Assembly: GCA_025055455.1 (NCBI GenBank) | Contig: JANWXD010000006.1 | Coordinates: forward strand, 1 to 64,000 | DNA length: 64,000 bases | Direction: 5' to 3' | Origin: Bryobacteraceae bacterium | GTDB taxonomy: Bacteria; Acidobacteriota; Terriglobia; Bryobacterales; Bryobacteraceae | Shown: in pieces, positions 3,149 through 15,509 of the stretch | How the letters are laid out: each line of letters starts with the position of its first letter | Numbering within the stretch: position 1 is the first letter of the stretch | Translations under genes and position numbers: made by a program | Notes under the pieces: model-generated | Databases searched by the model: none | What the model saw: only the letters and a program-made list of their open reading frames with translations | What the model was told of the DNA's origin: nothing

Positions 3149-4741
3149 ATGCACGCGCCTTGCGTCGGTATCCTGTTGGGAGCCATGCAGTTAGTCTGCA
3201 CGGAGGGGCTGAACTTTGTGCTCCGGCACTCCCCGACCGCGCAAAAGTATCTCGTCGAGACGATGACCGGCGGTGTCGCGCTGCTGGACTACGACCGCGA
3301 TGGCAGGCTGGATCTTTTCCTGGTCAACGGCGGCAAGCTGGACGACGCGGTGCGGCCGCCCCTGCGGTTGGCGCGCCACCATCCGAACTACTGGAACCGC
3401 CTGTACCGCCAGCAGCCGGACGGGCAGTTCATTGACGTCACCGTCAAGGCTGGACTGGCGCGCGCCGGCGAGTCGAACTACGGCATGGGAACGGCGGTCG
3501 GAGATTACAACAATGACGGATATCCGGACCTTTATGTCACTAACTTCGGCCACAATCAACTCTATCGCAACAATGGCGACGGCACCTTCACCGACGTAAC
3601 GGCGGAGGCGGGAGTTCACGGCGGGGGCTGGTCCGTTTCCGCCGGTTTTTTCGATTATGACCGCGACGGCTGGCTCGACCTGTTCGTCAGCCGTTATCTG
3701 GACTGGGATTTCACCCGGAATCTCCACTGCGGAACTCCCTTTCGAGCCTACTGCCGGCCCGACCGCTACCACGGCACGACGAACCTGCTGTATCGCAACT
3801 TAGGCAACGGGCGCTTCCAGGACGTCAGCCAGCAAGCCGGCATCGCCACACCTGTCGGAAAAGGGATGGGGGTCGCCTTCCTGGATTACGACCGCGACGG
3901 CTTTCCGGACATCTTTGTCTCGAACGACGGCATGGAGCAGTTTCTCTATCGAAACCTGGGCGACGGCCGCTTTCAGGAAGTGGCGTTGGAAGCGGGCGCG
4001 GCTTTGAGCGACGATGGAAGGCCGTACGCGGGCATGGGCGTCGCCGCCGGCGATTACGACAACGATGGGTGGCCGGACGTCCTGGTGACGAATCTGGCCC
4101 TCGAGCACTGGGCCCTGTATCGCAACGAGGGGCAGGGCCGGTTCCGCTACGTCAGCCGGGAGACCGGTCTTGCCGCCATCAGCGCCTCCAGCTCCGGCTG
4201 GGGCGCCGGGCTGTACGATTTCGACAACGACGGATGGAAGGACCTATTCGTGGCTCGCAGCCACGTGCTCGACAACGTCGAGAGGATTCACTCCGGGCTG
4301 CGGTACAAAGAACCGGCCGGACTGCTGTGGAACCGCGGCGGGCGGTTCGTGCTGGAAGACCTCAAGGGCGCGCCCGCCGTGGCCGGGCGCGGCGCAGCGT
4401 TTGGCGACCTGAACAACGATGGGGCGATGGATGTCGTGATGACCGCTCTCGGCGAGCGGCCTCAGATCTTCCTGAACCGGCGCCGCGGCAACCACTGGCT
4501 CACGGTGCGGTTGGTCGGCACGCGGAGCAATCGCGACGGCTTGGGCGCCAAGGTCCGCGTCGCCGGCCAGTGGGCCGAGGCGACCACCGCCGGTAGTTAC
4601 CTTTCCGCCAGTGACGCGCGGGTGCACTTCGGTTTGGGCGAACGCGCGCGGGTCGACGTCGAGATCGAGTGGCCCAGCGGCCGGCGTCAGCTTCTGGCGG
4701 GCGTCGCCGCAAACCAGATCCTGGAGGTGCGTGAACCGTGA
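3149..4741 (+). CDS. CRTAC1 family protein with FG-GAP/VCBS repeats and ASPIC/UnbV domain
   Basis: Probable beta-propeller protein of about 530 residues. Repeated Asp-rich calcium-type blades (DYDRDGRLDLF, DYNNDGYPDLY, DYDRDGWLDLF, DYDRDGFPDIF, DYDNDGWPDVL, DFDNDGWKDLF, DLNNDGAMDVV) run through residues 35-430. The C-terminus (about 450-530: NHWLTVRLVG..., SYLSASDARVHFGLG, WPSGRR) is an ASPIC/UnbV module. These are known from secreted eukaryotic CRTAC1 and abundant bacterial relatives; the biochemical role is not established. The start is uncertain: the ATG at 3149 gives only a short hydrophobic stretch, a poor signal peptide; a GTG at 3110 is also in frame. Its stop overlaps the start of the next TPR gene, so the two are probably translated together. 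Confidence 0.88.
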   Translation: MHAPCVGILLGAMQLVCTEGLNFVLRHSPTAQKYLVETMTGGVALLDYDRDGRLDLFLVNGGKLDDAVRPPLRLARHHPNYWNRLYRQQPDGQFIDVTVKAGLARAGESNYGMGTAVGDYNNDGYPDLYVTNFGHNQLYRNNGDGTFTDVTAEAGVHGGGWSVSAGFFDYDRDGWLDLFVSRYLDWDFTRNLHCGTPFRAYCRPDRYHGTTNLLYRNLGNGRFQDVSQQAGIATPVGKGMGVAFLDYDRDGFPDIFVSNDGMEQFLYRNLGDGRFQEVALEAGAALSDDGRPYAGMGVAAGDYDNDGWPDVLVTNLALEHWALYRNEGQGRFRYVSRETGLAAISASSSGWGAGLYDFDNDGWKDLFVARSHVLDNVERIHSGLRYKEPAGLLWNRGGRFVLEDLKGAPAVAGRGAAFGDLNNDGAMDVVMTALGERPQIFLNRRRGNHWLTVRLVGTRSNRDGLGAKVRVAGQWAEATTAGSYLSASDARVHFGLGERARVDVEIEWPSGRRQLLAGVAANQILEVREP

Positions 4742-5811
4742 CAACTTGCCTGCTGGCGCTTGCCGTTGCGCTCGGCGCGCAAGCGCCCCAATCCAGCCTG
4801 CGCGAGCTGGCGGAAGCGGGAATGAAAGCCAAACAGGCAGGCGACCTGGCGGCGGCGATTCGCGCCTTCGAACAAGTGGCGGCCCTGGCGCCGGAGCTGG
4901 CGGCGGCGCACGTGAACCTTGGCGCTGCCCTCTTGGAGGCCCAGCAGTACGACAAGGCGGTCCTCTCTTTGCGCCGGGCCCTGGCGCTAGATTCCGGCCT
5001 TCCGGGAGCGCATGCCATGCTCGGCACGGCTCTGCTCATTCAGGGTTACGCTGCCGAGGCGATTCCCCATCTAGAACGGGCGCAAAGCTGGGACCTGCTC
5101 GGCGTGGCCTTGCTCGAGTCCGGCCGCACGGCGGAGGCGATCCCAGCCCTCGAGAAGGCCGCCACCCAACGCCCGGACGACCCCGACCTGCTGTATTACC
5201 TGGGGCGCGCCCACAGCCAGCTGTCCCGGCAGTTGTTCGACCGCTTGCTCGAGGCGCATCCGGATTCCGCCCGGGCCCACCAGCTCCTCGGCGAGGCGCA
5301 CCAGGCGGCGGGCAACCGTGAGCTTGCCGAAAGGCAACTTCGCGCGGCCCTCGAGCGCCGCCGCAATCTGCCCGGAGCGCACTTGGCTTTGGGCGAGCTC
5401 TATGAAAGCGCAGGCGATTACCGGCGGGCCGAACGTGAGTACCGCACCGAAGCGGAAATGCGTCCCGGCGACGCCCGGGCGGCGATGAAACTCGGCAGCG
5501 TGCTGCTGAACCAAGGCCGAGTCGAGGAGGCGCTTCAGTGGCTGCAACGGGCCGATCGCCTCCGCCCCGGCGTGCCCGAAACGCAGCTCCCATTAGCCCG
5601 CGCATGGGTCTCCGCGGGGCGGTTAGAGGAAGCCGAGAAGACCCTCAAAAAAGTGCTCGAGCAAGAGACGGACGCCCGACTGGCCGAATCCGCCTCGTTT
5701 CAGCTTTATCAGGTCCTCCAGCGACAGGGTCGGACGCAAGAGGCCCAGCGGGAACTCGAACGCTACCGCCGCATCCGCGCCGGACGGCCTCCCGCCGCGG
5801 CAGCGAAATAA
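4738..5811 (+). CDS. Exported TPR-repeat protein
   Basis: A 357-residue protein with a GTG start overlapping the stop of the CRTAC1 gene by 4 bases. A short N-terminal hydrophobic segment (CLLALAVALGAQA) looks like a signal peptide. The rest is about eight tetratricopeptide repeats (for example AHVNLGAALLEAQQYDKAV, LAGALDSG-like helices, AHLALGELYESAGDYRRAE, AAMKLGSVLLNQGRVEEAL). TPR arrays are protein-protein interaction scaffolds; the coupling to a CRTAC1 protein, common in acidobacteria, suggests that they work together in the periplasm or at the surface. No catalytic motif. The gene ends 7 bases before the convergent hpnD stop. Confidence 0.85.
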   Translation: MTTCLLALAVALGAQAPQSSLRELAEAGMKAKQAGDLAAAIRAFEQVAALAPELAAAHVNLGAALLEAQQYDKAVLSLRRALALDSGLPGAHAMLGTALLIQGYAAEAIPHLERAQSWDLLGVALLESGRTAEAIPALEKAATQRPDDPDLLYYLGRAHSQLSRQLFDRLLEAHPDSARAHQLLGEAHQAAGNRELAERQLRAALERRRNLPGAHLALGELYESAGDYRRAEREYRTEAEMRPGDARAAMKLGSVLLNQGRVEEALQWLQRADRLRPGVPETQLPLARAWVSAGRLEEAEKTLKKVLEQETDARLAESASFQLYQVLQRQGRTQEAQRELERYRRIRAGRPPAAAAK

Positions 5812-5818
5812 ACAGACG

Positions 5819-6721
5819 CTAGGGGGCGCCCGCGCCGCGACCCGTGTTTGCCCATGACCCCCCACTCCGCTGCCATTGCCTTCCCCACATCGCTTGCGCC
5901 ACGATCCACGACTTCTCCCAGGCCGGCAACCGGATTCGGCGGGCCATCACGTCGAAATCCGACCGCTCGATCCGCTCGAGAAGCTTGCGGTAGATCGCGA
6001 TCAGGGCCCAGAGGGCAGCACGACCCTCGGGGGCGACCGCCCCGATGAGCGGGGCGGACTCGCGATAATACCACGCGGCTCGCACCGCCTGGCGCCGCAA
6101 TACCTCCACCACCGCGGGCGTGCGCCGTCCGGCCAGCACATCCTCGGCCCGGGCGCCTGCATGGGCCAGGTCCTCTTCCGGAAGGTAAATCCGGCCTCGT
6201 AAAGCGTCCTCCCGCACGTCCCGCAATATATTGGTAAGCTGGAACGCCACGCCGCACTTCTCCGCTAGCGCCAGCGCCTGAGCCGATTCGAATCCCAGCA
6301 CGTGCACAAGCGACAGGCCGGGGACCGAAGCGACTTGGTAGCAATAGCGGTACAATTCCTCGAACGTCGCCATTCTTCGGGGCCGCAAATCGCCCGCCAC
6401 GCCCTCCAACACTTCGTAGAAATAGTGGCGCGGAATTCGATAGCGCCGCACCGTGTCGGCGAACGCCGGCCACAGCGGTCCCGGCGGCGAGCGGCCTTCG
6501 AGAGCCTGCTCCATGTCCCGCCGCCAGGCCGCCAGCGCCGCAGCCGCATCCGCCCCCGGTTCGTCCGTCAGATCGTCGCACCGCCGCATGAAGGCGTAAA
6601 GGGCGCAGACGGCGTCGCGCTGGGGCGACGGAAGGAGCCAGAAGGAGTAATAAAAGTTCCGCGCCCGGCGTCTCGCCAGGCGCCGGCACCACGCGTACGA
6701 CTGCGCCACCGAGTCCTTCAT
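5819..6721 (-). CDS. hpnD: Presqualene diphosphate synthase HpnD
   Basis: Head-to-head condensing enzyme that joins two farnesyl diphosphates into presqualene diphosphate, the first step of the HpnCDE route to squalene. 300 residues, the usual family length. Both Asp-rich magnesium/diphosphate motifs are present: DDLTD at 49-53 and the second Asp pair in NILRDVRED (D168, D172), followed by RGRIYLP. The ATG at 6721 overlaps the hpnC stop by 4 bases, so translation is probably coupled. The open frame continues upstream to 7396 but that part is antisense-like sequence over hpnC. Last gene of the hopanoid operon. HpnD rather than HpnC is chosen from the NFYYSFWLLP and LTNILRDV signatures and the gene order. 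Confidence 0.9.
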   Translation of the reverse strand: MKDSVAQSYAWCRRLARRRARNFYYSFWLLPSPQRDAVCALYAFMRRCDDLTDEPGADAAAALAAWRRDMEQALEGRSPPGPLWPAFADTVRRYRIPRHYFYEVLEGVAGDLRPRRMATFEELYRYCYQVASVPGLSLVHVLGFESAQALALAEKCGVAFQLTNILRDVREDALRGRIYLPEEDLAHAGARAEDVLAGRRTPAVVEVLRRQAVRAAWYYRESAPLIGAVAPEGRAALWALIAIYRKLLERIERSDFDVMARRIRLPAWEKSWIVAQAMWGRQWQRSGGSWANTGRGAGAP

Positions 6722-7632
6722 GCGGCCTGCCACAGCGCCGTCCGCGCCACCGTGCGCACCAACAACCACGCCCGCTCGGGGCGGGAGATCCGGGGACGCC
6801 GCACGAAGACGTCGTAACCTTGCGCGGCGATCTTGTCGAGAATCCTGAGCCCGCCCTGGGTGAACAGTTCGATGTCCACGGCAAGCCTTCGGTCCACCCG
6901 GCGCGCCAGCGGCAGTCCCTCGAGGAACAACCGCCGCGCAACTTCGGTCAGCTCCCGCAGGGCGGAGCGAAACTCCGCCGTGGCCCTCCGCGCCCAGACG
7001 TCCTCCAAGCGGCATCCATGGCGTTCCAAGACGCGCAGCGGCAAGTACAGCCTCCCCCGATCGAGATCCGCCCCGACATCCTGACAGAAGTTCGCTAACT
7101 GCAAGGCGGTGCAGGTCGAATCGGAAAGCTTCTGGCGCTCCGGATCGCAATACCCGCACAGGTGGAGCACCAGCCGTCCGACCGGATTGGCCGAACAGCG
7201 GCAGTAGTCGAACAGGTCGGGATAGTCCAGATAACACGTCACCGTCTGGTCTTGGATGAACGCCCGGATCAAATCCAGAAACGGCGGCTTGGGCAGGACG
7301 TGCCGTTCCAGCGTGGACCGCAGTGCGACGAACACCGGATGCGTCGCCCGGCCTGCGAACAGATCGTCCGTCTGCTGGCGCCACCACGCGAGCCACTTCA
7401 GGCTCTCGGCGGGATCGCCGAGTTCGTCGGCCAGGTCATCCGCCCAGCGGCAGAAGGCGTACACATTGAAAAAATCCTGGTGCAGTCGTCGCGGCAGCAG
7501 CAGGCTGGCGACGTGGAAGTTTTCATAGTGACGGCGCGCCAGCCAGCGGGTGTACGCCTCAGCCTCCCCCAGCGCCCACTCGCGACCGAGCGCTTCCGGC
7601 GATCGAAGGAACTCTCTGGGAACGAGAAACAC
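6718..7632 (-). CDS. hpnC: Hydroxysqualene synthase HpnC
   Basis: Squalene/phytoene synthase family member of 304 residues that in characterised systems converts presqualene diphosphate to hydroxysqualene. Motifs: ENFHVASLLLP near 38-47, first Asp motif DDLAD (65-69), second motif NFCQDVGAD (D185, D189) followed by RGRLYLP. The paired hpnC-hpnD arrangement is typical of hopanoid producers lacking a single-enzyme squalene synthase. The third member, hpnE (a flavin amine-oxidase-type hydroxysqualene dehydroxylase), is not found here; it must lie elsewhere or be replaced. A 34-base gap separates hpnC from the upstream dehydrogenase. Confidence 0.9.
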   Translation of the reverse strand: MFLVPREFLRSPEALGREWALGEAEAYTRWLARRHYENFHVASLLLPRRLHQDFFNVYAFCRWADDLADELGDPAESLKWLAWWRQQTDDLFAGRATHPVFVALRSTLERHVLPKPPFLDLIRAFIQDQTVTCYLDYPDLFDYCRCSANPVGRLVLHLCGYCDPERQKLSDSTCTALQLANFCQDVGADLDRGRLYLPLRVLERHGCRLEDVWARRATAEFRSALRELTEVARRLFLEGLPLARRVDRRLAVDIELFTQGGLRILDKIAAQGYDVFVRRPRISRPERAWLLVRTVARTALWQAA

Positions 7633-7666: not shown

Positions 7667-8707
7667 TCAGGGAATAATCGCCGTCTTCAAGTGCCCGTTG
7701 TGACTGGTGAGATACTGCATCACTTCCAGGAGATTGGCCAGGGGCTCCTCGCCCTTGACGAAATCCCGAGCCGTGATATAGCCCGCGTAGATCACCTCCA
7801 GCGCTCGCCGTACGTGAGCCGGGGTGTGGTGGAAGCTAGCCAGACAGCGGATCTCCGAGTAGTGCAGCAGTGCGGTGTCGAGCTGGATGCGTGTGTCGCT
7901 CGGGCAGCCACCGAAAAAGTTGACCCTGCCGCCACGCCGCACCAACTGCACCGCCAGTTCCCAGGTGGCGGGCGTTCCCACAGCTTCGATGGCGATGTCG
8001 GCGCCGCGTCCCGCCGTCAGGGCGCGCACCGCGCGCGGCACATCGAAGCCGCCTCCTGTCAGCAGCACCTCGTCCGCCCCTAACCGCTGCGCCCGCTCCA
8101 GTTGCTGGGACCGGCGTCCCACGGCGATGACTCGCGCTCCGTGAACCTTCGCCAGCCGCACGAACATGAGCCCGATGGGTCCCAGGCCGATCACCGCCAC
8201 CGTGTCGCCGCTTTGCACGCCGGTCTCTTCCAAGCCGCGCAGCACGCAGGCCAACGGCTCGGCCAGCGCCGCGTCTGTGTAGCCGATATGATCCGGAATC
8301 GGGTAAGTATTCTTGCAGACAATCCGGGCCGGGATGCGGATATATTCGGCGTAGGCGCCGTTGTTGAACAACAGGTCCTCGCAGAGATTCTCGTTGCCGC
8401 GCAGGCAGTAATAGCAGTTTTGGCAGGGGGCCGAGTTGGCGGCCACCACCCGCTGGCCCACGCGGAACTCACGCACTCCTTCGCCGACCGCCACCACGTC
8501 GCCCGCCAGCTCGTGGCCGAACACCGCCGGGGGCACAATCATCCGCGCATGATAGCCGCGCAGGAACACCTTGACGTCCGTCCCGCACGTTAGCGCCGCC
8601 TTGACCCGCACCAACAGCTCCCCCCGGCCGATCGAGGGAACCTCCACCGCCTCGACGCGCAAGTCCTCCTTGCCGTAGAGGACGGCGGCCATCATGTGTG
8701 TTTTCAC
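7667..8707 (-). CDS. Zinc-dependent medium-chain alcohol dehydrogenase in the hopanoid operon (A)
   Basis: A 346-residue MDR dehydrogenase of the sorbitol/threonine dehydrogenase type. Catalytic zinc ligands C41 and H65-E66 (GHE) and the four structural zinc cysteines C95, C98, C101, C109 are intact. The Rossmann motif is VIGLGPIGL, and strand beta-2 ends in VGRRS without an acidic residue, which usually favours NADP(H). The GTG at 8707 overlaps the stop of the preceding dehydrogenase as GTGA and has GGCGG before it; ATGs at 8695/8692 are alternatives. Its place between hpnG and hpnC suggests a role in hopanoid side-chain redox chemistry (inference). It could instead act on an unrelated polyol. 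Confidence 0.87.
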   Translation of the reverse strand: MKTHMMAAVLYGKEDLRVEAVEVPSIGRGELLVRVKAALTCGTDVKVFLRGYHARMIVPPAVFGHELAGDVVAVGEGVREFRVGQRVVAANSAPCQNCYYCLRGNENLCEDLLFNNGAYAEYIRIPARIVCKNTYPIPDHIGYTDAALAEPLACVLRGLEETGVQSGDTVAVIGLGPIGLMFVRLAKVHGARVIAVGRRSQQLERAQRLGADEVLLTGGGFDVPRAVRALTAGRGADIAIEAVGTPATWELAVQLVRRGGRVNFFGGCPSDTRIQLDTALLHYSEIRCLASFHHTPAHVRRALEVIYAGYITARDFVKGEEPLANLLEVMQYLTSHNGHLKTAIIP

Positions 8708-9762
8708 GCGAACCGCCTTTGTGGCTGAACCACAATTTTCAACGATTCTTCTGTGGGATGCAACGCGAGCTCGATTCCCTTGTGAATCTCGTCCAAGCCG
8801 ATGCGGTGCGAAATTAGCTCCTCTACGGGCAGCTCGCCGCTGAACACCAGCTCGGCCGACTCCTTCTGAAGGTCCGCCGAGGCACTGTAGCAGCCGAGCA
8901 GCGTGCGCTCGCCCACGCAGATGTCGGCGCCGCACAGCTCCACGGTTTCCTGGCGCGAGGTCTGCGCGAACAGCAGAATCCGGGCCCCGGGACGCGAGCA
9001 CCGCATCGCCTCCAGGACGATGCCCGGCGCGGAAACCGCCACGATCACGGCGTCCGCCCCCCGCCCTCCCGTGAGGTCCCTGACACGCTCGGCCACGGCC
9101 ACGGTCCGCGGGTCCCATGCCTCGACTGCGCCGAACCGCAGGGCCAACGCCCGCCGTCGCGCGATCGTGTCGGTGGCCACCACGGTTGCTCCTTCGCGTC
9201 GCGCGAGCATCGTGAACAGCAAACCGATCGGCCCCTGCCCGAGCACCGCCACCAGCTCGTCGGGCTGCAACGCCAGCAACCGCACCGCTTTCAGACACGT
9301 GTTCACGGGTTCCACAAAGCAGGCCCGTTCGAACGGGACCCCCTCGGGGATCCGCTCCAAGCCCCGCGGCACAATCCAGTCCAGGACCCGCACGTACTGC
9401 GCGAAGCCGCCTCCGGCCGGCTCGTAACCCGCCGTCACGCCGACCTTCTGATAGGTCGCGCATTGGGCGTACAGCTTGCGCCGGCAATAAAAGCAATCCA
9501 GGCACGGCACGTGATGGAAGACCACGACGCGGTCTCCGGGCGCGAACTGGCGCACCCCGGCGCCCGTTTGCACGACCACACCCGCCGTCTCGTGGCCGAA
9601 AATCCGCGGGGCCGGGAGGAGATCCTGCGCGATCTTTTTCAAATCCGTATGGCAGATGCCGCAGGCTTCGACCCGCACCAGCACCTCGCCGGGGCTCGGT
9701 TCCGGCGTGGGCACCTCCTGGACCCTTACGGCGCCGCGGCCGACGTAGACGGCCGCGCGCAT
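8704..9762 (-). CDS. Zinc-dependent medium-chain alcohol dehydrogenase in the hopanoid operon (B)
   Basis: A 352-residue MDR dehydrogenase, second of a tandem pair but clearly diverged from its neighbour. Catalytic zinc ligands C37 (CGICHTD) and H57-E58, structural zinc cysteines C87, C90, C93, C101, coenzyme motif VLGQGPIGL, and an Asp at the end of beta-2 (VATDTIARRR) that usually favours NAD(H). The start at 9762 lies 19 bases after the hpnG stop; the longer open frame to 9975 overlaps hpnG and is not used. The two dehydrogenases differ in predicted coenzyme preference, so they may catalyse opposite or successive steps. Substrate unknown; a hopanoid link rests on operon position only. Confidence 0.87.
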   Translation of the reverse strand: MRAAVYVGRGAVRVQEVPTPEPSPGEVLVRVEACGICHTDLKKIAQDLLPAPRIFGHETAGVVVQTGAGVRQFAPGDRVVVFHHVPCLDCFYCRRKLYAQCATYQKVGVTAGYEPAGGGFAQYVRVLDWIVPRGLERIPEGVPFERACFVEPVNTCLKAVRLLALQPDELVAVLGQGPIGLLFTMLARREGATVVATDTIARRRALALRFGAVEAWDPRTVAVAERVRDLTGGRGADAVIVAVSAPGIVLEAMRCSRPGARILLFAQTSRQETVELCGADICVGERTLLGCYSASADLQKESAELVFSGELPVEELISHRIGLDEIHKGIELALHPTEESLKIVVQPQRRFA

Positions 9763-9781: not shown

Positions 9782-10492
9782 TCAGAAACGGCAGGCGCCA
9801 AGAAATTCCCCCAGACGTTCCGCCGCAGGACGGCAACGGCGGTAGAACCGCCACAATTCCGGCAGTTCTGTACCGGGCCGGCGAAGGGCCCCGGCCAGCA
9901 CGCGCCACGGCACGATACGGCCGTCGCCGTTGCGGGCCGCGTTGAAGTCCACCCGCAACGGCTCCCATGCCGCATCCACCACCACTTTCACCGCCGCAAA
10001 GGGCAGGCCCGCCGCCGCGGCGGCGGCGGCCACCGCAGCCGCTTCCATTTCGACGACCGCCCACCCCGCCGCCCAAAAGCGGCTCTTCTCCTCGACCTCG
10101 CGGACCACCGCGTCGCACGACAGAACGACGCCGACCGCATGAGGCAGCTTTGCTTGCAGAGGACTCGCCTCGTACGCCGTGCCGTCTTCCGCGCGAACCA
10201 CTCGCGTCGCCACCAGCACGTCCCCCGGATGCAGAGTCGGATCCAGGGCCCCGCAGAATCCCGCGCTGATCAGCGTCGCCGGAGAGATATGTCGCAAAGC
10301 CCAGTCCACCGCCCGCTGGGCCAAGCGCTGCCCATGCCCTCCGGCGACCAGCCACAGGCGGGTGCCCCCCAGTTCGACTTCCCATGCTCCGTCGAGGGGC
10401 CAGTCCAAGCGCCGGCGATTCTGGCACCGGCGCAAAATCCCGGCGAGCTCTCGGGCCTCTGCCGCCACGACCAGCACTCCGTCGTGCGTCAT
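9782..10492 (-). CDS. hpnG: Hopanoid nucleosidase/phosphorylase HpnG
   Basis: A 236-residue member of the purine nucleoside phosphorylase/MTA-SAH nucleosidase superfamily. HpnG homologues remove adenine from adenosylhopane to give (phospho)ribosylhopane. Visible signatures: SAGFCGALDPTLHPGDVLVA (family loop), and VVEMEAAAVA with the conserved Glu of the nucleoside site. Unusual is a run of alanines in that helix. It is placed between hpnA (12 bases upstream) and dehydrogenase B (19 bases downstream), which fits the order of steps after HpnH. Assignment as HpnG, rather than a general nucleosidase, relies on the operon. Confidence 0.88.
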   Translation of the reverse strand: MTHDGVLVVAAEARELAGILRRCQNRRRLDWPLDGAWEVELGGTRLWLVAGGHGQRLAQRAVDWALRHISPATLISAGFCGALDPTLHPGDVLVATRVVRAEDGTAYEASPLQAKLPHAVGVVLSCDAVVREVEEKSRFWAAGWAVVEMEAAAVAAAAAAAGLPFAAVKVVVDAAWEPLRVDFNAARNGDGRIVPWRVLAGALRRPGTELPELWRFYRRCRPAAERLGEFLGACRF

Positions 10493-10504: not shown

Positions 10505-11479
10505 TCAGCAGTACCCGTTGCGACGGAACCATTCCACGGCCCGCCGCAACGCCTCATCCACCGGCCCAGGCTCGTAACCCAGTTCCCGGGCCGCCTTCTC
10601 GTGCGAGACCCACATTTTTTTGCGCGCCATGCGCACCCCATCCAGCGGTACTCGCGGCGGATGGCCGGTCAGCCTCGCCCAGCCCGTGCTCACCGCGCCG
10701 GCGATCCACGCCGCGGCGAAGGGGAGCCGCAGGCGGGGAACGCTGCCCCCGGTGATGGCGGCGAGCTTTTCCAGAATCTGCCGCAGAGTCAAGTTCTCCG
10801 CCCCAAGAATGTACCGCTCGCCCGTCCGGCCGCGTTCCAGCGCCAGCCAGTGCCCTCTGGCCACGTCTCGCACGTCCACCAGGTTCAACCCCGTGTCGAT
10901 GTACGCCGGCATGGCCCCACGCAGGTAATCGAGGATGATTTTTCCCGTTGGCGTCGGCTTGACATCGTGCTCGCCGACCGGCGCCGTCGGGTTCACGATT
11001 ACGACGGGAAAACCCGTTCGGGCAAACTCCAGCGCCACTTGCTCGGCGAGGAATTTCGAACGCTTGTAAGCACCCAGCATATCCTCGAGGCTTACCGGCG
11101 TGGCTTCCGTTCCCTGCCCGCCCTCGGGAACCCCGATGCAGCCGACCGTGCTGGTATAGACGACGCGCTCGAGCTGGGCCCAGCGCGCTGCCTCGAGCAG
11201 GTTCCGCGTGCCTTGCACGTTGGAGGCGTAGAGTTCCCCCGGGTTCGCCGCCCACAGCCGGTAGTCGGCCGCGACATGAAACACCGCCGCGCAGCCCCGA
11301 ACGGCACGCTGCACTGCCTCAGGGTCCCGCAAGTCGCCCAGGGTTTCCTCCACCTCCAGTTCCCGCACCGAACCGAGGCGCCGCACCAGCGCGCGAACCC
11401 GCCAGCCCCGTTCCAGCGCCACGCGCGCCACATGCCAGCCCACAAACCCGCTTGCACCCGTGATCAAAACCGGCGGCAA
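10505..11479 (-). CDS. hpnA: Hopanoid-associated NAD-dependent epimerase HpnA
   Basis: Short-chain dehydrogenase/epimerase of 324 residues. It has the N-terminal nucleotide motif TGASGFVG (about 7-14), an extended-SDR catalytic motif YKRSK (Y and K in GAYKRSKFLAEQ) and VNPTAPVGEHDVKPTPTG, a stretch characteristic of the hopanoid-associated sugar epimerase family HpnA. The exact reaction is not settled in the literature as far as I know. It starts 3 bases after the hpnH stop and is followed 12 bases later by hpnG, so it is certainly part of the operon. Confidence 0.9.
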   Translation of the reverse strand: MPPVLITGASGFVGWHVARVALERGWRVRALVRRLGSVRELEVEETLGDLRDPEAVQRAVRGCAAVFHVAADYRLWAANPGELYASNVQGTRNLLEAARWAQLERVVYTSTVGCIGVPEGGQGTEATPVSLEDMLGAYKRSKFLAEQVALEFARTGFPVVIVNPTAPVGEHDVKPTPTGKIILDYLRGAMPAYIDTGLNLVDVRDVARGHWLALERGRTGERYILGAENLTLRQILEKLAAITGGSVPRLRLPFAAAWIAGAVSTGWARLTGHPPRVPLDGVRMARKKMWVSHEKAARELGYEPGPVDEALRRAVEWFRRNGYC

Positions 11480-11482
11480 TTC

Positions 11483-12595
11483 TTACCGCAAGGCCCACCG
11501 CAGGAGGCGCCAGATGTCGCCTGGCCTGGCGTTGATCCCCAGGGCAGCCGACGGTTCGTAGCCGCAATGCACCATGCAGTGCTCGCAGCGTGGGTCGTTG
11601 CCATGCCCGTACTGCTCCCAGGGCGTTCGAGTCATCAACTCCTCGAAAGTGCGGTAGTGCGCGTCGGTGATGAGGTAGCACGGCCCTTTCCAGCCGCGCA
11701 CGTTGTACGTTGGATTTCCCCAGGCCGTGCAAGGCAGCTCCCGCTTGCCCTGGAGAAACTCCAAGTATACGGGCGAGGCGTTCAGCCGAAACCGCCTCGC
11801 CAGCCGATCCACGTGCCGGAACTTTTCCTGGATGTCATCGCGCGTCATGAAGATTTCCCGGTTGTTGACCGACGAGTAGCCGTAGGCCGGCGAAATCATG
11901 TGTCCGTCGAGCTGGAGAGGCTCCAGATACTCGAACAGCGCCTCGATCTCGGCCATGTCGGTCTCGCGGTAGACCGTGGTGTTCGTGCTGACCTTGAACC
12001 CGGCCGCTTTGGCGGCACGCATGCCCTCGATCGCTTCCCGGAAGACTCCGTCCCGCTCCACGCACCGGTCGTGCGTCTTTTCCAAGCCATCCAGGTGCAC
12101 GTTGAAGAAAAAGCGCGAATCCGGACGGAACTCGTGGAGGCGCTTCCGGATGAACATCCCGTTCGTACAGAGATAAATGTGGCGGCCCCGCTCGAGAATC
12201 CGTCGCACCAATTCTCCGATCTCCGGGTACAGCAGCGGCTCGCCTCCACAAATGGAAACGATCGGCGCCCCGCATTCGTCCACTGCCGCCAGGCACTCGT
12301 CCACGGTCAGCTTCTGGGTGATGGTGGATTCGTACTCCCGGATGCGCCCACAGCCCGTGCAGGTGAGGTTGCAGGCATGCAGCGGTTCGAGCATCAACAC
12401 CAGCGGAAAACGCTTCTGGATCATCGGATGCGGCCGCCGGCCGTTCCCGCTTGCCGGCCCTTGGCGCCAAATCTGGAAGGGATTGCCTGCGTCGGTGGCT
12501 GCAGGCGCCCGCCGTTGCCATTCCGGCTTCGGGCGGCGCTTGTTCCTGAGAATATAGCCCGCTAACCGAAGCGTCAGGGAGAGAGGAAACCTCAT
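11483..12595 (-). CDS. hpnH: Radical SAM adenosyl-hopene transferase HpnH
   Basis: Radical SAM enzyme that attaches the 5'-deoxyadenosyl group to diploptene, the first committed step to C35 hopanoids. 370 residues. The iron-sulfur motif is C75, C79, C82 (CNLTCTGC); SICGGEPLLYPE and a C-terminal cysteine-rich region (CEHCMVHCGYE) follow. The start at 12595 overlaps the shc stop by 4 bases; the longer frame to 13132 is only a shadow of shc. Compared with the HpnH sequences I recall, an extra proline- and arginine-rich linker (about residues 22-58) lies between the N-terminal helix and the barrel. Assignment secure. Confidence 0.93.
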   Translation of the reverse strand: MRFPLSLTLRLAGYILRNKRRPKPEWQRRAPAATDAGNPFQIWRQGPASGNGRRPHPMIQKRFPLVLMLEPLHACNLTCTGCGRIREYESTITQKLTVDECLAAVDECGAPIVSICGGEPLLYPEIGELVRRILERGRHIYLCTNGMFIRKRLHEFRPDSRFFFNVHLDGLEKTHDRCVERDGVFREAIEGMRAAKAAGFKVSTNTTVYRETDMAEIEALFEYLEPLQLDGHMISPAYGYSSVNNREIFMTRDDIQEKFRHVDRLARRFRLNASPVYLEFLQGKRELPCTAWGNPTYNVRGWKGPCYLITDAHYRTFEELMTRTPWEQYGHGNDPRCEHCMVHCGYEPSAALGINARPGDIWRLLRWALR

Positions 12596-14523
12596 CGCGA
12601 GCCGCTGTTCTCCGATTGGTGAGCGCGCAGAAACTCCGCGAGCGCCATCAGCGGGAAGGAGATCCGATAGAGCTGATAGGTCAGATAGAACACTCGCGGG
12701 AAACCTGTCCCCGTAGCCAGCTCTTCCTCCCATCCGCCGTTTGCCTGCTGGGTTTCGAGCAGGTACTCCACCCCGCGCCGCACGCTCAAGCTGCTCGCGT
12801 CGCCGCTGGCCAGCAGGCCGAGGATGGCCCACGCCGTCTGAGACGCCGTGCTCTCGGCGGGCACGAAGGCGGCGTGGTCGTAGCTGGCGCAACTTTCGCC
12901 CCACCCTCCGTCGGCGTTCTGGATCGAGCGAATCCACTCCCCGGCGCGCAGGATGTGCGCCTCGCGCTCGTCTTCGCCCGCCGCCCGCAGGCCCCGCAAG
13001 GCCAGGAACGTCCCATAGAGGTAGTTCACGCCCCAGCGCCCGTACCAGCTGCCGTCCGGCTGCTGCGTGCGCCGCAGATAGGCTACGCCCCGGCGGACGG
13101 CGCGATGCGCGCGGTCCAAGCCGCACCGGCACAGCGCTTCCAGTACCCGCCCGGTGATGTCCGGGCAGGTGGGATCGAGCATGGCGTTGTGATCCGCGAA
13201 CGGCACCTCGCTCAGGGACGTCCAGTTGTTGTCCGCATCGAAGGCCGCCCAGCCGCCGTCCGACGACTGCATGGCCACCAGCCAGCGCAGCGCCCGCCGC
13301 ATGGCCGCCTCCCGGGCCTCGCTCGGCGGACAGCGGGAGAGGGCCAGCAGCACCATGGCGGTGTCGTCCATGTCCGGGTAAAACTCATTGGCGAACTCGA
13401 AGTACCAACCGGACGGCTCGACCCCGGGGCGCTTCACTGCCCAGTCTCCGCGCCGGCGTACCTCCCGGCCGAGCAGCCACTCGGCCGCGCGTCGCAGCGA
13501 CTCCTGGCGCGCACATCCGGATTCCGCTAGCACGAACGCGGCGATGGCCGTGTCCCAAACCGGGGAAAAGCACGGCTGGAAAAAGAACCGCTCGCCGTCA
13601 TCCGTCAGTAGGCTCATGAACTTCTGTTCGGCCTCCGCGCGGTCCGGGTGATCGCGGGAGTAGCCGAGCACGTCCAGCGCCATGATCGCGTACAGCATCG
13701 GCGGGTAGATGGCCGCCAACCCGTCGGAATACCGCAGGCGTTCCAACATCCACTGCTCGGCGGCCCGAACAGCGCGTCGCCGAACGGCTTGCCAGCCATA
13801 GCGCTCCCACAGCTTCCAGCCTCGGTCCAAGGCCAGAAAAACGTTGCGCCACGTCAGAAGCTTCTCCGAACGCCGAAACCCCAGGCTCGCCCCCGGCAAA
13901 AACAGCTCCTGGAGCGTGAACCCCTCCGGCACCGGACGTCGCGGATCGGCCGCCTGCACAATCGACAGCGGGATTACGATCGCCCGCGTCCAGGACGACA
14001 TCTGATAGATGAACTGCCCCGGCAACAGCATCATCTCCGGGGGCACGGAAGGGCAGAACTCGCGCGGGTACAGCCCGAACAGGCTCAGGTTGATCTTCAC
14101 GTAGCTGTTGGCCGCCTGGATTCCGCCCAGCGAGAGGATCCGTTCCCGAGCGCGCCGCAACTCGGGCCCGTCGGCGGGCAGACCTGCCAGTTTCAAGGCG
14201 AAGTATGCCTTCACCGTGGCGCTGACGTCGGCCGGGCCTTTCGGGTAAATGTTGAACCCGCCGTCGGGCAACTGCCGGGCCACAATCGAGCGCACGGCTT
14301 TGTCTACCAGATCCCGCGTCGGGGGATTCCACGTCTTTCCCGAGGGCGGATAGAGCCACAGTTGCAGGAGGATGAAATCCGATTCGAGCGTGGTGTCGGC
14401 GGTCAGCTCACCCCACCAGTAACCCTCCGGGCGCTGTAAGCTGCTCAGGTGCTCGCCGGCGCGACGCAACGCCTCCGCCGCCCCGGCGACCAGGTGATCG
14501 CCGACCTGAACACCTGTGGTCAT
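12592..14523 (-). CDS. shc: Squalene-hopene cyclase
   Basis: Class II triterpene cyclase of 643 residues, normal for the family, which folds squalene into hopene/hopanol at the membrane surface. The protonating motif DMDDT is at 384-388, and several QW repeats are visible (QLPDGGFNIYP, QSSDGGWAAFD, QQPDGSWYGRWG, QNADGGWGES, QQANGGWEE). The ATG at 14523 overlaps the ispH stop by 4 bases. The open frame continues upstream to 14718 within ispH; that extension is not homologous to cyclases. Core enzyme of the operon. Confidence 0.96.
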   Translation of the reverse strand: MTTGVQVGDHLVAGAAEALRRAGEHLSSLQRPEGYWWGELTADTTLESDFILLQLWLYPPSGKTWNPPTRDLVDKAVRSIVARQLPDGGFNIYPKGPADVSATVKAYFALKLAGLPADGPELRRARERILSLGGIQAANSYVKINLSLFGLYPREFCPSVPPEMMLLPGQFIYQMSSWTRAIVIPLSIVQAADPRRPVPEGFTLQELFLPGASLGFRRSEKLLTWRNVFLALDRGWKLWERYGWQAVRRRAVRAAEQWMLERLRYSDGLAAIYPPMLYAIMALDVLGYSRDHPDRAEAEQKFMSLLTDDGERFFFQPCFSPVWDTAIAAFVLAESGCARQESLRRAAEWLLGREVRRRGDWAVKRPGVEPSGWYFEFANEFYPDMDDTAMVLLALSRCPPSEAREAAMRRALRWLVAMQSSDGGWAAFDADNNWTSLSEVPFADHNAMLDPTCPDITGRVLEALCRCGLDRAHRAVRRGVAYLRRTQQPDGSWYGRWGVNYLYGTFLALRGLRAAGEDEREAHILRAGEWIRSIQNADGGWGESCASYDHAAFVPAESTASQTAWAILGLLASGDASSLSVRRGVEYLLETQQANGGWEEELATGTGFPRVFYLTYQLYRISFPLMALAEFLRAHQSENSGSR

Positions 14524-15509
14524 ACGCTCCGGACCAGCTGGCCGGAAACCTGGACCAGTTCCGCAGGAAGCTGAAAACGCACGTCCTCTTCCGTCACCTC
14601 GAGTTCTTCGACGCGCGCGTAACCGCGGCGCTTCAGCGCTTCGATCAGTTCGTAGACTAAGTGCTCGGGCGCCGAAGCGCCGGCAGTGACCCCCACCGTC
14701 TGCACTCCACGAAGCCACTCTTCCCGGATCTCGCCGGCGTCGTCAATGAGATACGCGGGAGTCCCCAGCCGCCGGGAAACCTCCGCCAGCCGCTGCGAAT
14801 TCGAACTATTCTGGGAGCCGATCACCAGCAGCAACTGGCAGAGCGGCGCGGCCGCCTTCACGGCCAGTTGGCGGTTTTCCGTCGCGTAGCAAATATCCTG
14901 CGCCGGCGGGCCTTGGATCTTCGGGAATTTGCGCCGGAGCCGCGCCACGATGTCACGCGTTTCATCCACGCTCAGGGTGGTCTGTGTCAGGTAGCAGACC
15001 CGGTCGGGATCCGGCACTTCCAGCCGGTCGACATCCTCCTCGGTCTCGACGAGGACACTCGAGTCGGGAACCTCGCCCAGCGTGCCGATCACCTCGTCGT
15101 GGTCCCGATGCCCAATGAGCACGACAGTATAGCCCTGGCGCGCAAACCGCAGCGCTTCCAAATGCACTTTGGTCACGAGCGGACAAGTCGCGTCGATCAC
15201 CTTCAAATTGCGGGACGCAGCCATCCGGCGCACCACCGGCGCGACGCCGTGGGCGCTAAATATAACCCGCGCCCCTTCGGGAACTTCGTCCACTTCGTTG
15301 ACGAAGATCGCCCCGGCAGCGCGGAGCTCTTCCACCACATGCCGGTTGTGGACGATCTCCTTACGCACGTAAATGGGCGGGCCGAACGCCTCCAACGCCA
15401 AGCGCACAACGTCGATGGCGCGCACCACACCGGCGCAAAAGCCCCGGGGAGTGAGCAGCAAAATCCGCCGGCCATCCACGCAGGCACGATCCCCGTCAAC
15501 CTGGCTCAT
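14520..15509 (-). CDS. ispH: 4-hydroxy-3-methylbut-2-enyl diphosphate reductase
   Basis: Last enzyme of the MEP pathway, an iron-sulfur protein making IPP and DMAPP. 329 residues with the three cluster cysteines C25 (PRGFCAGV), C109 (DATCPLV) and C207 (DICYATENRQ) and the SAHGV and SQNSSNS motifs. It is the first gene of the hopanoid operon and overlaps shc by 4 bases, so isoprenoid precursor supply and triterpene cyclisation share one transcript. A TATAAT box lies 11 bases before the ATG. Confidence 0.96.
   Translation of the reverse strand: MSQVDGDRACVDGRRILLLTPRGFCAGVVRAIDVVRLALEAFGPPIYVRKEIVHNRHVVEELRAAGAIFVNEVDEVPEGARVIFSAHGVAPVVRRMAASRNLKVIDATCPLVTKVHLEALRFARQGYTVVLIGHRDHDEVIGTLGEVPDSSVLVETEEDVDRLEVPDPDRVCYLTQTTLSVDETRDIVARLRRKFPKIQGPPAQDICYATENRQLAVKAAAPLCQLLLVIGSQNSSNSQRLAEVSRRLGTPAYLIDDAGEIREEWLRGVQTVGVTAGASAPEHLVYELIEALKRRGYARVEELEVTEEDVRFQLPAELVQVSGQLVRSV

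Follow-up and report, generated by a model that had tools for sequence, protein, structure and literature searches.

Many C35 hopanoids, and the hopane fossils used in geology, derive from bacteriohopanetetrol (BHT). Cell-free reduction of ribosylhopane to this compound is said to need NADPH, as Bodlenner reportedly found in 2015. An enzyme for the conversion was not established as of 2025 in the passages of PMC12583986 that deal with it, which agrees with the preliminary description of this locus on the lack of a well-established ribosylhopane reductase; according to the same passages, the surroundings of alphaproteobacterial hpn clusters offered its authors no obvious extra candidates.

The closest described genes are found in a 2017 paper (PMC5462960), whose relevant excerpts contain the following: (I) ug2, which codes for a zinc-binding alcohol dehydrogenase of some 350 aa, often lies before hpnC and is tied to the squalene genes hpnC-hpnD-hpnE, with no further function assigned there; (II) ug1 is an unknown gene after hpnA-hpnG; (III) hpnA is suggested as the gene for the reduction. 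In these excerpts ug2 is placed in all SD1 and SD3 acidobacteria, yet is also given as absent from cluster A of SD3.

The two dehydrogenases described here, A and B, occupy the positions of ug1 and ug2, respectively, as matched by position alone. Hence, the location of the hpnC-side dehydrogenase in the hpn cluster was already noted in print (PMC5462960). Those excerpts treat ug1 and ug2 as separate genes, and the pair, its coenzyme split and a wider module are not noted in them. In the literature searched (few subscription journals, no preprints, some sources in part), genes at the A and B positions are not named as side-chain enzymes. New here are the pairwise inheritance of A and B, their membership of an apparently older module, their opposite coenzyme types, and the finding that this genome's pathway is otherwise complete.

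The dehydrogenase pair and its pathway

The window, a stretch of 64,000 nucleotides from a Bryobacteraceae bacterium (GCA_025055455.1, contig JANWXD010000006.1, positions 1 to 64,000), carries the gene order ispH-shc-hpnH-hpnA-hpnG-A-B-hpnC-hpnD, all on the minus strand. A denotes the dehydrogenase adjoining hpnG, and B the one adjoining hpnC. From first gene to last, with NCBIfam scores:

14520 to 15509, minus strand: ispH, which opens the apparent operon (NF002189, 470 bits)
12592 to 14523, minus strand: shc (hpnF), squalene-hopene cyclase, probable start at ATG 14523 (TIGR01507, 660 bits, scored as the span 12592-14538)
11483 to 12424, minus strand: hpnH, adenosylhopane synthase, start at ATG 12424 uncertain (TIGR03470, 428 bits; searches used the span 11483-12499)
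10505 to 11479, minus strand: hpnA, hopanoid-associated SDR (TIGR03466, 467 bits)
9782 to 10492, minus strand: hpnG, putative adenosylhopane phosphorylase/nucleosidase, divergent, between hpnA and A (TIGR03468, 128.8 bits, cut-off 187.1)
8704 to 9762, minus strand: MDR-A, predicted zinc dehydrogenase, 352 aa, intact ORF directly 3' of hpnG
7667 to 8707, minus strand: MDR-B, predicted zinc dehydrogenase, 346 aa counted from GTG 8707, intact ORF directly 5' of hpnC
6718 to 7632, minus strand: hpnC (TIGR03464, 323 bits)
5819 to 6721, minus strand: hpnD, last gene of the apparent operon, probable start at ATG 6721 (TIGR03465, 254.5 bits, cut-off 278.6)

HpnH, HpnA, HpnC, SHC and IspH pass their NCBIfam cut-offs; HpnG and HpnD score below theirs, yet each is the top match and sits in the right position. 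The spacers measure 3 bases (hpnH-hpnA), 12 bases (hpnA-hpnG), 19 bases (hpnG-A) and 34 bases (B-hpnC), the last two exactly as first described. The 4-base overlap of A and B given with them is less certain: it holds for a B start at GTG 8707, but the alignment of B orthologs begins at a methionine matching ATG 8692 or 8695. One of these is probably the real start, which would leave a short gap between the genes and no overlap.

A and B share 34% identity over 318 residues. The residues that we take to be their catalytic zinc ligands are C37, H57, E58 and E151 in A and C36, H60, E61 and E145 in B; these and the four structural-zinc cysteines are invariant among 29 aligned A orthologs and 31 aligned B orthologs. 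The original picture of two diverged MDR dehydrogenases with intact zinc sites between hpnG and hpnC is thus upheld. AlphaFold models of A (pLDDT 92.8) and B (pLDDT 91.7) match solved MDR enzymes, among them a putative zinc dehydrogenase, a ketose reductase and a threonine dehydrogenase, and the 50 top PDB matches of each protein are alcohol, polyol or threonine dehydrogenases or similar, all with E < 1e-27. The top match of A is 4ej6 (E 1.2e-34). The second match of B is 1e3j (E 1.8e-33), an NADP(H)-dependent ketose reductase that resembles B in fold and in the coenzyme its motif suggests, at 29% identity; sorbitol dehydrogenase (1pl6) is also like B in fold, with 26% identity in the fold match. 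Given the zinc ligands, the MDR fold and the Rossmann GxGxxG motif, both proteins classify as zinc-dependent MDR dehydrogenases.

Neither protein could be assigned to a named dehydrogenase family, all 24 NCBIfam matches of A and 25 of B being far under the curated cut-offs. The top matches of both are L-threonine 3-dehydrogenase (TIGR00692 and PRK05396; 137-173 bits versus cut-offs of 380-458) and the scyllo-inosose 3-dehydrogenase IolM (NF041097; 165.3 and 166.1 bits versus 450), and both identities were rejected on these scores.

An acidic residue ending strand beta-2 is a signature of NAD(H) use, and a non-acidic residue followed by basic ones is a signature of NADP(H) use. In A, beta-2 ends in the NAD(H)-type motif VVATD; in B, the motif is VIAVGRR, of the NADP(H) type. 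The position is acidic in all 29 aligned A orthologs (Asp in 28, Glu in 1) and non-acidic in 30 of the 31 aligned B orthologs, the exception (L023) having Asp; the next residue in B is K, R or N in 31/31 and the one after it R or H in 29/31. This is a conserved coenzyme split, A being NAD(H)-like and B NADP(H)-like. The preliminary description had it the other way round (NADP(H) for A, NAD(H) for B), if its A was the hpnG-side gene, as its order of spacers implies, since the hpnG-side gene is the acidic, NAD-type one and the hpnC-side gene the basic, NADP-type one.

Further pathway genes lie elsewhere in this genome. HpnE, a flavoprotein that carries out a reductive dehydroxylation, is encoded on contig C59; HpnI and HpnK are adjacent on C44, and HpnJ is on C90, all three scoring above their NCBIfam cut-offs. 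With HpnE, HpnI, HpnK and HpnJ present, this genome should make BHT, and the known steps leading from farnesyl diphosphate to BHT cyclitol ether are all represented, except the one from ribosylhopane to BHT. This inventory supports the view that the pair would fill the sole step from diploptene to BHT cyclitol ether that has no assigned enzyme in this genome.

Distribution and gene neighbourhood

To place the pair in its phylum, 197 Acidobacteriota genomes with a completeness of at least 90% were profiled, with orthologs defined by at least 49% identity for A and at least 53% for B. Orthologs of A occur in 34/197 genomes and those of B in 35/197, and every genome with A also has B (34/34). HpnH is present in 54/197, and 33 of these 54 carry both A and B. 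Among the 143 HpnH-negative genomes, A is found in one (G100) and B in two (G100 and G117). G100, 93% complete, has SHC, A and B without HpnH; G117 has a lone B ortholog and no SHC, HpnH or A. The association with HpnH, with phylogeny ignored, gives Fisher p values of 4e-22 for A and 7e-21 for B. A genome with SHC that clearly lacks HpnH, which would separate C30 from C35 roles, was not found among the 197, G100 being the sole case. A further 3 matches of A and 16 of B, at 35-46% identity, were set aside as non-orthologous; 14 of these 19 were placed in the tree, and all 14 fall outside the ortholog clades.

The 5 of the 13 HpnH families that hold the orthologs come from at least two classes; of the 23 HpnH genomes in the window's class, 22 carry both genes. 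G007 is not accepted as an in-class counter-example because HpnA, HpnG and HpnE were not found in it either and its hpnH lies on a contig of just 10.7 kb. It had been stated in advance that C35-hopanoid-making relatives lacking both genes would speak against a role for the pair; such cases exist outside the window's class, given that 21/54 HpnH genomes have neither ortholog and that, in the excerpts of PMC5462960, Chloracidobacterium thermophilum produces BHT without an hpnC-side dehydrogenase. We examined 13 hpnH neighbourhoods (L124, L139-L150) from these 21 genomes, using a rough gene calling that missed some genes. No replacement zinc dehydrogenase near hpnG was seen among 10 hand-picked proteins from 6 neighbourhoods, which were three squalene/phytoene synthases, an HMG-CoA reductase, a GHMP kinase, an HpnG-like phosphorylase, a luciferase-like monooxygenase and three FMN-dependent dehydrogenases (probably type 2 IPP isomerase).

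Synteny was compared in 34 genomes, namely 33 fetched ones and the window. A adjoins B in 21/34; the two are apart in 13/34, all in family f2. In these 13, B lies directly before hpnC (13/13), and A follows hpnG in 10 and hpnA, with hpnG-sized room, in 3. In such split genomes B stays with the squalene-synthesis genes and not with hpnG, an observation that runs against a side-chain role. Across the whole set, the gene directly 5' of A is hpnG or hpnA in 33/34: a recognised hpnG in 20, hpnA at 775-855 bases (room for hpnG) in 3, and hpnA at 117-225 bases in 10. The gene directly 3' of B is hpnC (22) or hpnD (10) in 32/34. G059 (family f37), where the pair and the hpn cluster are on different contigs, is the exception on both sides; in G194, neither hpnC nor hpnD was recognised in the 1.4 kb of contig remaining past B. 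Family f27 (10 genomes) has no space for hpnG between hpnA and A; its HpnG matches elsewhere in the genome are weak in nine (E 8e-16 to 1e-19), and there is none in G187. The lone B of G117, the off-contig pair of G059, the lack of a recognised hpnC or hpnD after B in G194 and the missing hpnG room in f27 are further observations against a side-chain role. Families f1, f2, f27 and f48 all retain the orthologs' position next to hpn genes.

A second sample consisted of named acidobacterial loci, the closest relatives of A (best 80 of at least 582 confirmed loci). B lies within 300 bases 3' of A in 74/80; five of the others end too early and one shows no B. At the Edaphobacter modestus locus (L250), no B was found in 10 kb downstream of A. 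This cultured strain and Acidipila sp. EB88, also in culture, both carry A in their hpn cluster, and in EB88 B adjoins it. In the same best 80 of at least 582, hpnC is 3' of B in 68/80, and hpnG is recognised just 5' of A in 63/80. At L210, L211, L212 and L221, hpnA, shc and ispH (and hpnG in three) have the opposite orientation, and A remains with B. The top-listed named relatives of A, among the matches listed, are Bryobacterales/Solibacter-type acidobacteria. All titles in the best 80 are acidobacterial, with identity of at least 53%; weaker non-acidobacterial orthologs would fall below this cut. Thus, by the synteny counts, the two dehydrogenase genes mostly stay linked to each other, A being tied more closely to hpnG and B to hpnC, and the arrangement is conserved far beyond chance. 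The comparison of hpn operons across Acidobacteria that the preliminary description had called for shows both genes in 33/54 HpnH genomes, with their position next to hpn genes largely retained.

Outside the phylum, 192 plasmid records have a B-like match, all at less than 60% identity. For Streptomyces, Roseomonas and Mycetohabitans (3 of 31 HpnH plasmid records), the PLSDB gene tables, which are incomplete, show no zinc dehydrogenase in the hpn cluster. The best-ranked plasmid homolog of B, WP_242323970.1 of Rhodococcus opacus pLPS8 (46.9% identity), has the FHHTP and NSAPC stretches, as B does; unlike B, it carries the NAD-type Asp, and no A-like neighbour is annotated. Its neighbours include a class II aldolase and an FGGY carbohydrate kinase, so that its setting is one of sugar/polyol catabolism. 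Since this homolog in such a setting has the NAD-type Asp, the hpn-linked B looks to have switched to NADP(H).

Tandem pairs outside the hpn cluster

The neighbourhoods of 12 of the 16 distant B-like genes were examined. Eight of them (L126, L253, L254, L255, L256, L257, L258 and L261) have two side-by-side MDR genes with no hpn gene recognised close by; of the remaining four, L251 and L252 each hold one B-like gene on its own, and in L259 and L260 the single gene groups with the A-like ones. Single A-like genes also occur (L262-L264). In the tree, A and B each attract one member of every tandem pair, and both halves branch alike: L126, L253 and L254 cluster together, and L255/L256 and L258/L261 are sisters. 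The A-side group has support of 91/87; some deeper forks are open, and L257 sits on long branches. The pairs of L126, L253 and L254 have the same NAD-type/NADP-type split as A and B, and in L255/L256 and L258/L261 both members look NAD-type. Because the paired members split between A and B and branch alike, the hpn-linked A and B apparently belong to an older tandem two-dehydrogenase module, of which they would be one branch.

The neighbours of the non-hpn pairs vary (dxs, prephenate dehydratase, a solute-binding protein, a helicase, cytochrome c assembly and others), and an attempt to read a function from them gave no shared theme among 20 hand-picked proteins.

Candidate roles of A and B

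Judged by their sequences and setting, A and B qualify as good candidates for completing the side chain in this acidobacterial lineage, a step whose enzyme is still missing. Our leading interpretation, which we hold tentatively and at a little below an even chance, is that they form a lineage-specific pair of zinc polyol dehydrogenases acting on the side chain that C35 hopanoids derive from ribose, with B likely an NADPH reductase. A and B would act after HpnH and HpnG on the five-carbon side chain. B would use NADPH to convert the open-chain aldehyde of ribosylhopane to BHT, and A, with its NAD(H)-type motif, may share this substrate moiety, being either an alternative reductase or a secondary-alcohol dehydrogenase. 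We propose side-chain action, and B as the NADPH reductase, because of the pathway gap, the operon, the phylogenetic profile and the kinship of B with polyol and ketose reductases; from these we infer the substrate, the direction of the reaction and the division of labour.

The earlier proposal of the pair as ribosylhopane reductase keeps its ground insofar as both genes are conserved members of the operon in this lineage, track HpnH and match the sole gap; as a general enzyme it fails. A universal ribosylhopane reductase should occur in every C35 maker, and 21/54 HpnH genomes have neither ortholog. Given these genomes, BHT production by Chloracidobacterium in the PMC5462960 excerpts, the clusters of other phyla and the presence of HpnA in 52/54 HpnH genomes of the phylum, A and B cannot be the enzyme that all producers share; they may be the form used in this lineage, or catalyse a tailoring step.

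The latter possibility forms part of the strongest alternative: BHT would be made by a general reductase encoded elsewhere, such as HpnA or an unlinked AKR/SDR, and A and B would perform lineage-specific tailoring, for instance epimerisation (A with NAD+, B with NADPH) or further oxidation. The wide occurrence of HpnA (52/54 versus 33/54 for A and B), BHT production outside the A/B lineages (PMC5462960, in part) and the adjacency of opposite coenzyme motifs all fit it, as do the 34R and 34S isomers of BHT reported in bacteria in passages of PMC12583986. Against HpnA as the reductase stand excerpts of PMC5462960, in which hpnA is apparently non-essential for BHT in Burkholderia cenocepacia (some evidence being cited) and BHT makers without hpnA exist, for example Rhodopseudomonas. 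Tailoring likewise meets the statement there that nearly all acidobacterial strains have tetrafunctionalised hopanoids only, and side-chain isomer data for acidobacteria were not found in the literature searched, part of it seen in excerpt. We consider this alternative possible, if on the unlikely side.

Less likely again is a role of the pair outside hopanoid chemistry, on soluble sugars, polyols or other alcohols, its place in the operon being regulatory or historical. Similar tandem MDR pairs do occur away from hpn genes, some of them in genomes without HpnH; G117 has its lone B, and the solved-structure relatives include sorbitol, threonine and other soluble-substrate dehydrogenases. Nevertheless, the A/B ortholog clade is nearly restricted to HpnH genomes, and the hpn-adjacent place is kept in the four families named above and in the named loci (best 80 of at least 582).

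We give somewhat less credence still to a recruited tandem pair running in opposite directions, in which A would oxidise a side-chain hydroxyl with NAD+ and B re-reduce it with NADPH, setting stereochemistry (e.g. at C-34) or taking the ribosyl group to the tetrol in two steps, unlike the direct reduction of other phyla. Finally, that B joins HpnC and HpnD in making squalene, for instance in place of HpnE, is very improbable: B is directly 5' of hpnC or hpnD in 32/34 genomes, 9 of the 10 f27 genomes have no HpnE match at E 1e-40, and excerpts of PMC5462960 tie ug2 to the squalene genes, but HpnE is matched in 24/34 A/B genomes, the window's own included, its chemistry does not suit a zinc alcohol dehydrogenase, and B adjoins A in 21/34.

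Taken together, the preferred interpretation, a side-chain-acting dehydrogenase pair, is plausible on the comparative evidence and limited to one lineage. As a conserved and apparently co-transcribed candidate pair in a phylum with cultured producers, A and B make the question testable with two genes. If they are side-chain enzymes, then hopanoid makers would use different, unrelated enzymes for one step, or the pair would make a structural variant; the latter, if true, could serve as a biomarker of soil acidobacteria.

Boundary and gene order of the hpn run

The gene run in the window, in which hpnD comes last, is bounded by a gene convergent with the end of hpnD:

4738-5811, + strand, TPR-repeat protein

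A different gene order, in which hpnA, A and B are followed at once by an hpnD-like gene, was found in family f27 and in one similar locus among the closest acidobacterial relatives of A (best 80 of 582); these loci are L112, L114, L116-L123 and L245. The interval between hpnA and A in f27 and the similar locus is too short for hpnG. In L119, hpnC takes the place of the hpnD-like gene directly after B.

Half of the Bryobacterales-type loci having both shc and hpnA (18/36: L173, L176, L177, L180, L181 and 13 more of L171-L209) carry hpnA directly after shc, with a gap below 200 bases. In these 18, hpnH was not recognised between the two genes or elsewhere in the locus.

Divergence of HpnG

With the window's proteins as reference, HpnG (9782-10492) is 35-44% identical to its counterparts in the Bryobacterales-type loci L171-L209, while HpnH, HpnA, A and B reach 59-77% in the same loci. 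Thus, HpnG is far less conserved than these neighbours. HpnG was scored in 21 genomes, namely that of the window and 20 more, and reached the curated cut-off in none; three of those 20 gave no match at all.

MDR genes apart from hpn genes

A solitary B ortholog (L125, 55%) lies on contig C23 of genome G117, from which SHC, HpnH and an A ortholog are all absent; G117 additionally holds a separate B-like/A-like tandem pair (L126). Another such pair (L257, G160:C46:44000-60000) is one rough gene call from dxs, and genome G160 gave no SHC or HpnH match.

Late side-chain genes

HpnI, HpnK and HpnJ all score above cut-off in the window's genome (contigs C44 and C90). In its possession of HpnK, this genome differs from the SD1 and SD3 acidobacteria, which lack hpnK according to PMC5462960.
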